DNA of 43,971 nt. Source: Armatimonadota bacterium (GTDB lineage Bacteria > Armatimonadota > Fimbriimonadia > Fimbriimonadales > Fimbriimonadaceae). Under the pieces are notes generated by a model, which saw nothing but the letters and a program-made list of their open reading frames with translations, ran no database searches and was not told where the DNA came from. The stretch spans positions 1 through 43,971 of the forward strand of contig JAGQUX010000022.1 in NCBI GenBank assembly GCA_020438215.1, in the 5' to 3' direction. Positions 18,009 to 20,399 of the stretch are shown piece by piece (position 1 is the first letter of the stretch; every line of letters starts with the position of its first letter). The translations under genes were made by a program, and so were the position numbers.

Positions 18009-18044
18009 CCCTCTTTTGATGGATTGAATCTAAATACTCAGATC

Positions 18045-19826
18045 ATGCTGAGTTCGCTCTCTCTAGCCGCCGTGCTGATTTCTGCTCAGTCCGAGCCGGA
18101 ACTCAAGCTCACGACGCTTAAGCAGTATGTGGTCGAGGTGGTGCAACCTAACTGTGATACTCAGATCACGGTCTACCCAAGCCTTGAGAATTTCCCCGTG
18201 GTCTACTACTGGAATGGGAGAAAGTTTGACAACGAGGACTTGGATATCATCGCCTTTTCTACGAGATTGAAAGGTGAACTGCGGGAAGGGGAGTTTGCAT
18301 TTACTGGCCTTGCTTACCCGGAAGTTGATGATCGGATGACCTACATCAAGAGGGCACTTGCGAAATTTAGGGTGGATATTCAGCCGTATTTGAAGATGAG
18401 TGCGGAGGAACTGGGAAAACTCTTTGCCGAGACACTTCCCGTAGATCCAGAAGCCAAGTTAGATGATCACACGCTCCGAGAACTTCGGCTCATTTACGCG
18501 GCAGGATCAACCTATGGTCGCATTCTGACCGAGCATATCCTCACACAGGATTTTGATCAATTGGCGAGCGAAATCTATCGATCTGGTTTTGCTTTTGATC
18601 AAGTTCCGCTCAACTCAAATGGAGAAAAGATCGCAGAAGAAATCATAAAAAACAAAGATCGTTCTCGAATTCTGGTTGATAGGCTGGAGAGCTTCAGGAG
18701 ATTTCGCTATAGTAAGCCCGATATCGAAAAGAGTATTGTGGACAGCCGGGACAAACTGTCGAGCCACATTGGATTTGATGTTGGGAGTTTTGCGTCCGCA
18801 GAGTCGGGCCTGTATATGCAGATTTTTGGTACCAATAATGATGAACTCAATAACATCAGTGTTTCTCTTTTCTTCCCACCCGAGAAATTCACTCACCTGA
18901 CAAGAGAATCAGCAAACCCGATTGATGAAAAATGGAACATTACAAAACCGGGGACATACCTTTACAAGCGCTACCAAAAACATCCTGATCCAGAGTTTCC
19001 TGACTTGTTTTTCGCTGTTCATAAGGCCGCAGTAGGTGGTATCGCCATTGATCGGAAAATGAGTTATGTTGGCCCGTACTTCAAGGGCTTTGTATCAGTA
19101 CAGCGAGATTGGTCAAGTCAGAAGTTGAGCGTTGCGGCACCTGAATTGAGTGTTCGCAACGAAAGAGACTGGGTGATTGTAGAACATCAAAAACCAGTGG
19201 AATTTGATACGCGTATGGACTGGGAGAAGCTGTTGAAGCAAGTCGGAAAATACAATTCGCTTCAGACATATCGGGAGCTACGCGATTTTGCGTATGATAT
19301 GACTCCTGAAGAAATGAACCAGTGGATCAACTTGATCAATTGGAGTGGGCACAATTGGAAGTCAGGCATCTTTGAATTTTGGACTGCAATTGCTATGTGT
19401 CTGAATACAATGCCGGAAGAGGACTTAGATAGAAAGTACGGCGATCTGAAATTCCGGCTAATTGCTGATTCCAGCATATTACACCGTCCACAAAATTCGA
19501 AGTTTTGGAGTCATATGAGCAACTCGTTGACTATCTACGGCATTACTCCTAGGGAACGTTGGCTACCCCAGGAGTATCGAGACAATATGGGGTTCATTTT
19601 GAGTACGGGGGAATCAAAGGAGGGTGAAGATGGATGTACTGTTTCGTTTTATCGTCCGGAATACGGCACTCGAGAAGAATCTGCCGTGATTGGAAACTAT
19701 TCAGTTTCCTTTGGGATGGATATTGATTTGTTGAGCGCTCATATGCGTGGCTACTGTGGTGTCGGTTTGGGTGCCGCCCAGTTGGCGGCACCCAGTCAAT
19801 CACTTCTCATCCAAGAGGATTTTTGA
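18045..19826 (+). CDS. Large exported protein of unknown function
   Basis: ATG at 18045 gives MLSSLSLAAVLISAQSEP, a plausible signal peptide; an in-frame TTG at 18024 would extend it by seven residues. The product is 593 aa and mostly hydrophilic with many aromatic and charged residues. Two or more segments follow an E-W/F-D-x-R pattern (KPVEFDTRMDWEKLL), and an alpha-rich region near residues 405-460 has conserved-looking Trp residues (MNQWINLINWSGHNW). I recognise no domain. Its last 27 bases overlap the convergent selenoprotein gene. Codon use appears richer in A/T-ending codons than nearby housekeeping genes, by eye only. Confidence 0.7.
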   Translation: MLSSLSLAAVLISAQSEPELKLTTLKQYVVEVVQPNCDTQITVYPSLENFPVVYYWNGRKFDNEDLDIIAFSTRLKGELREGEFAFTGLAYPEVDDRMTYIKRALAKFRVDIQPYLKMSAEELGKLFAETLPVDPEAKLDDHTLRELRLIYAAGSTYGRILTEHILTQDFDQLASEIYRSGFAFDQVPLNSNGEKIAEEIIKNKDRSRILVDRLESFRRFRYSKPDIEKSIVDSRDKLSSHIGFDVGSFASAESGLYMQIFGTNNDELNNISVSLFFPPEKFTHLTRESANPIDEKWNITKPGTYLYKRYQKHPDPEFPDLFFAVHKAAVGGIAIDRKMSYVGPYFKGFVSVQRDWSSQKLSVAAPELSVRNERDWVIVEHQKPVEFDTRMDWEKLLKQVGKYNSLQTYRELRDFAYDMTPEEMNQWINLINWSGHNWKSGIFEFWTAIAMCLNTMPEEDLDRKYGDLKFRLIADSSILHRPQNSKFWSHMSNSLTIYGITPRERWLPQEYRDNMGFILSTGESKEGEDGCTVSFYRPEYGTREESAVIGNYSVSFGMDIDLLSAHMRGYCGVGLGAAQLAAPSQSLLIQEDF

Positions 19827-20327
19827 AGCACGTTCGATATCTCCGTTCGCCAGATCAACAACACGGATTTTTCCGGTGCGGTCAATCAGAACGTAATCGG
19901 GGAAGGAATCGCAACCCAGAGTTTTCATAAACTCGCCATTTTCAATAGCAACGGGGTATTTCATGCCCGTTTCTTTGACGGCGGTTTTGCCTTTTTCGGC
20001 ATCGGGGTCACTATGGATGGCGAGAATCACCAGCCCATCTTTGGAGTATTTCTCGTGAAGTTCGTTGAGCTTCGGCACGGAAGCTCGGCAGGGGCCTCAC
20101 CAGTGAGCCCAGAGATCAATGAGAACGACTTTGCCTTTCAACTTGTCCCAACTGAGGGGGAGATTGGAAGGGGTATTGATCCAAGCCGATGCCTTCAAAG
20201 CCGGGGGCGCTTTGCCTTCCCAGCTATTTTTGAGTTCATCGTTCTTGCCGCTTCGCTCTCGCTTGAAATCATCTTGGATTGGCGCAACGGCAAGCAGAGC
20301 CGCCATTGCTAATGCGAATGCTTTCAT
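19800..20327 (-). CDS. TlpA/thioredoxin-like selenoprotein, in-frame TGA read as selenocysteine (U77)
   Basis: Read through one TGA (20097-20099), this frame encodes a 175-aa thiol-disulfide oxidoreductase of the TlpA/ResA type. The signal peptide is MKAFALAMAALLAVAPIQ; GGAG lies just before the ATG at 20327. The core reads KVVLIDLWAHW-U-GPCRASVPKL, so TGA stands exactly where the first active-site Cys of CGPC is expected and C80 is the partner. The rest is intact: AIHSDPD, MKYPVAIENG, and a cis-Pro region SFPDYVLIDRTGKI. Both halves are in the same frame with no other defect, and a SECIS-like hairpin follows. Such proteins reduce or isomerise disulfides outside the cytoplasm. The alternative, a pseudogene with one nonsense change, is less likely given the exact position. 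It needs selA/B/C/D elsewhere in the genome. Confidence 0.85.
20067..20099 (-). promoter_or_regulatory. Bacterial SECIS candidate: UGA plus downstream hairpin
   Basis: On the minus strand the TGA (20099-20097) is followed by 10 nt. Then comes a perfect 7-bp stem GAGCTTC/GAAGCTC (20086-20080 and 20073-20067) with the loop CGTGCC. The apical loop begins 17 nt after the UGA and has G as its second base. These values agree with published bacterial SECIS rules (small loop, G among the first two loop bases, loop about 16-37 nt from UGA). SelB would bind it with Sec-tRNA. Confidence 0.75.
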
Positions 20328-20399
20328 AGCGACTCCATTATGCGGAAGGTCATCATCAAAATGCGAATTTGAGAGAATTGCTGGCTTTTGCAGATCGGC

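Follow-up and report, generated by a model that had tools for sequence, protein, structure and literature searches.

The window considered here is the whole 43,971-nucleotide stretch of DNA that was analysed, and it belongs to genome G000 (2.64 Mb, 119 contigs, 99% complete). On its minus strand, a reading frame runs from an ATG at 20327 to a terminal TGA at 19802-19800, and the sole internal stop in this frame is a TGA at 20099-20097, codon 77 (Table 1). Read-through translation of the active site gives ...LIDLWAHW-U-GPCRASVPKL...DSFPDYVLIDR... (W-A-H-W-U-G-P-C-R). The first-pass annotation of this DNA had placed the TGA exactly at the first Cys of C-G-P-C in a TlpA-like frame (W-U-G-P-C-R) and had described the rest of the frame as intact; both statements agree with the translation, which retains the second Cys and the cis-Pro (Pro143) and has a hydrophobic N-terminus. 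It had also said that a gene caller would split the gene, and the standard-code ORF list holds exactly these two fragments, at 20097-20327 (76 aa) and 19800-20078 (92 aa, GTG start). The gene that standard annotation had cut in two is now corrected. A 600-codon ORF (TTG start) at 18024-19826 on the plus strand overlaps the 3' end of the gene tail-to-tail by 27 bases.

Table 1. Features of the candidate selenoprotein gene (window coordinates) and of selenocysteine-related genes elsewhere in genome G000 (contig and locus coordinates)
Feature	Position	Strand	Basis
Whole TlpA/ResA-like candidate selenoprotein gene, 175 aa, Sec = residue 77	19800..20327	minus	Read-through translation, Pfam Redoxin, AlphaFold2 model, orthologues
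UGA for predicted selenocysteine, first Cys position of CGPC	20097..20099	minus	TGA in 11 genomes, TGC in G009
Putative bacterial SECIS hairpin GAGCTTC-CGTGCC-GAAGCTC	20067..20086	minus	Re-coding score; stem pairing retained in G037 and G043
Probable N-terminal export signal (MKAFALAMAALLAVAP...)	20276..20327	minus	Sequence inspection; hydrophobic N-termini in orthologues
Shine-Dalgarno-like GGAG 5' of ATG (CCGCATAATGGAGTCGCT before ATG)	20333..20337	minus	Sequence
tRNA-Sec, anticodon TCA	C25:17782-17872		71.9 bits (cut-off 47)
SelB	C24:36335-38134		361.7 bits
SelA	C29:7854-8996		447 bits
SelD	G000:C64:49067-49978 (L027:1498-2490)	plus	351 bits
Second TlpA-like TGA frame, G-F-W-U-S-T-C	C31:222240-222602 region (L023:1468-2070)	minus	TGA at first active-site Cys

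In a Pfam search, the read-through protein matched Redoxin (PF08534; 69.9 bits, E 2.7e-19, residues 57-161) and AhpC-TSA (PF00578; 52.4 bits), both above their cut-offs and both across the TGA. The AlphaFold2 model of the full-length protein had a mean pLDDT of 90, and the nearest solved relatives by sequence and fold were ResA, DsbE/CcmG-like proteins, TlpA, and the C-terminal domain of DipZ. The marks of a TlpA/ResA-like protein are found together here: a thioredoxin fold of the Redoxin/AhpC-TSA kind, a UxxC motif, and a cis-Pro, P143, that is invariant. Signal-like N-termini were also seen in the orthologues by eye. Scores against the curated models were well below cut-off for ResA proper (NF002854; 65.5 bits vs 170), TlpA proper (NF047696; 51.4 vs 230), DsbE proper (TIGR00385; 52.4 vs 123), and the WAxxUGC selenoprotein NF041054 (44.3 vs 300; the motif here is UGPC). 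Given that every NCBIfam cut-off was missed, the protein apparently belongs to an unnamed subfamily. A protein scan of named genomes recovered distant thioredoxin-like relatives from other phyla only.

A search of the genome for the selenocysteine machinery had been proposed as a check on the first-pass annotation, and tRNA-Sec, SelA, SelB, and SelD were all found in G000, each over its curated cut-off. The SelD gene has its own in-frame TGA at the catalytic position (SCAG-U-ASK), which we take to be the usual Sec position of SelD; judged by its sequence, SelD is itself a selenoprotein gene. A Sec-containing formate dehydrogenase was sought with a molybdopterin-binding family search, and the one frame that matched contained no stop.

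Orthologues were compared across 113 genomes of the order Fimbriimonadales. Besides G000, 10 of the 113 genomes carry an orthologue interrupted by one TGA, whose codon position is identical in all ten. These orthologues share 34-59% identity over the matched part and span two families and ten genera other than that of G000; in nine of them both halves around the TGA are conserved. All 11 TGA genomes contain tRNA-Sec. SelA is present in 10 of the 11 against 50 of the 102 others (Fisher p 0.0096, with kinship ignored), an association that is only supportive; the TGA genome lacking a SelA match is G011, which is 74% complete and has tRNA-Sec. The alignment of homologues, another check that had been proposed, also returned a sole Cys orthologue (TGC), in G009, a genome 99% complete in which neither tRNA-Sec nor SelA was found. 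The same alignment column is Cys in the paralogues. In the protein tree, G009 lies inside a group with three Sec orthologues (support 100/98), and this nesting fits a Sec-to-Cys change plus loss of the trait.

Mutation of a Cys codon to TGA, or its misreading in sequencing, would leave a pseudogene or an apparent one, with the protein truncated at residue 76. Recent nonsense mutations do typically show up as one frame with a lone stop, but this account is very improbable next to an identical TGA in ten further genomes, each of a different genus, conservation of both halves in nine of those ten, and a complete Sec machinery in G000; the conservation of the TGA in independent genomes refutes it. 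Further frame damage in relatives, which the first-pass annotation had named as a sign against its reading, is confined to one case, with the frame otherwise sound in 10 of the 11 TGA genes. The exception is the G006 orthologue (C125:11296-11619; L039), in which the UGPC half is kept and similarity ends at about residue 113, possibly through a frameshift, an assembly error, or decay of the copy.

The distribution of the gene within the order is patchy. SelA scored over its cut-off in 60 of the 113 genomes, and the gene content of the order shows what appears to be a wide use of selenocysteine. No close orthologue was found in seven genus mates of G000 (G086-G092), all seven of which have SelA, and sporadic loss or gain is therefore indicated. 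Within about 8 kb of the gene in nine relatives, no conserved neighbour was found that would name a substrate (the G003 contig is 4.3 kb).

A reassigned code or suppression, in which UGA would be read as another amino acid such as Trp or Gly, has a very slight chance of being correct. The frame does remain open whether TGA is taken as W or as G, but TGA is an ordinary stop in this genome, ending 7 of the 21 long ORFs in the window as well as the candidate selenoprotein gene itself. G009 and the paralogues have Cys at the homologous position, the TCA anticodon was found on tRNA-Sec, and the Trp tRNA found has CCA; this reading was rejected. Among the 21 AhpC/TSA-family frames of G000, two are interrupted, each by one TGA where the active-site Cys belongs, and none of the 21 contains an internal TAA or TAG. 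The second TlpA-like frame, whose family match spans C31:222249-222602, looks like a lipoprotein and has a 7-bp hairpin (GGAGCTC-GGT-GAGCTCC) after its TGA.

It is equally hard to credit that two proteins are made, a short secreted peptide of 76 residues and a fragment of 92 residues starting from the GTG at 20078, as the standard caller lists them, since this split runs through the active site of the Redoxin domain, the UGPCRAS between the fragments is among the most conserved residues of the family, and the full-length model folds with a pLDDT of 90; conservation across the TGA disfavours it. Because both halves form one Redoxin domain and ten orthologues share the TGA codon, the read-through frame is not a chance reading.

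In bacterial SECIS elements, which lie directly past the UGA, the apical loop is small and contains a guanosine (PMC1088965). In the window gene, a hairpin with a 7-bp stem and a 6-nt apical loop, in which G is second, begins 10 nt past the UGA and has its loop 17 nt past it. Its score was equalled by 0.2% of synonymous re-codings. All seven pairs are kept in G037 (one as G-U) and in G043, where both partners of two pairs differ (C-G has become A-U, and U-A has become G-C); these compensatory changes in G043 also replace Ala with Glu and Lys with Thr in the protein. A shuffle control on the three sequences (G000, G037, and G043) was modest (43 of 500). The second TlpA-like gene and SelD likewise have hairpins whose loops contain a G. 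Of the other eight TGA orthologues, six had either no hairpin that fitted the SECIS pattern or an unremarkable one only, and the common stem returned by a structure search on these eight was an invariant 3-bp GGC/GCC without covariation.

We consider, with a probability of roughly 96%, that the product of this gene is an exported TlpA/ResA-like thiol:disulfide oxidoreductase in which selenocysteine would be the active-site nucleophile (U77-G-P-C80). At the sequence level, the Sec machinery, the conservation of the UGA, the exchange between Sec and Cys, and the fold are observed. The first-pass annotation had called the protein a probable selenoprotein, and at this level that proposal is upheld by the presence of the Sec machinery, the retention of TGA in relatives, the Cys where the machinery is gone, and the SECIS-like hairpin. 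Sec-tRNA would be made by SelA, SelD, and tRNA-Sec and delivered by SelB at the UGA, probably under the guidance of the downstream hairpin, and Sec would thereby actually be incorporated. Following the predicted export, the U77 selenolate would attack a substrate disulfide outside the cytoplasm, and C80 would resolve the resulting selenenyl-sulfide. Electrons to restore the reduced form would then come from the DsbD-type membrane reductase of the genome (C59, a 556-residue frame), the likely donor. By analogy with its family, a role as an exported thiol:disulfide reductase is likely.

A broader evolutionary account is offered tentatively, at somewhat less than even odds. The protein would represent a TlpA-like subfamily specific to this lineage, with Sec as the ancestral active-site residue and Cys as a secondary one that arose upon loss of the Sec machinery (G009); most orthologues would use an atypical SECIS, and the selenoproteome of the order would be undescribed. 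The comparison of G009 with its relatives offers a clean natural Sec/Cys contrast for the benefit of selenium in an extracytoplasmic thiol:disulfide reductase.

Both the mechanism and this class of protein were known beforehand, and the protein is of an ordinary bacterial selenoprotein type. Trx-like and Prx-like selenoprotein groups have been catalogued (PMC2398784; PMC1088965), and the catalogued UxxC selenoproteins include a thiol-disulfide isomerase-like protein (cd02966), a Redoxin family protein (PF08534), and a Prx-like thiol:disulfide oxidoreductase (PF00578) (PMC13188914 Table 1). A literature search returned no paper joining selenocysteine with Armatimonadota, and those naming both selenocysteine and Armatimonadetes apparently concern other subjects, judging by their titles and abstracts. 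The present protein shares with the UxxC thioredoxin-like selenoproteins a thioredoxin fold, Sec as the first residue of UxxC, and widespread Cys homologues, but differs from them, on the basis of their descriptions, in forming its own orthologous group within one order. This group is marked by a DDFKRERGG-like N-terminus and by DSFPDY...VVDLAN in the C-terminal half. With ResA, TlpA, and DsbE (CcmG) (4nmu, 3gl3, 1st9, and 1jfu), it has the fold and the active-site layout in common, whereas it carries Sec in place of the first Cys and scores far under their curated cut-offs. The NF041054 family also has a ResA-like domain in which Sec sits within a WAxxU sequence (44 bits for the present protein), but its model has 354 positions and a UGC motif, as opposed to UGPC and 175 residues here. 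The best fold match by E-value was the C-terminal domain of DipZ (2hyx and 5cyy); DipZ is larger and uses Cys, whereas the present protein is free-standing and would use Sec. The protein probably represents a lineage-specific subfamily of the UxxC TlpA-like selenoproteins.
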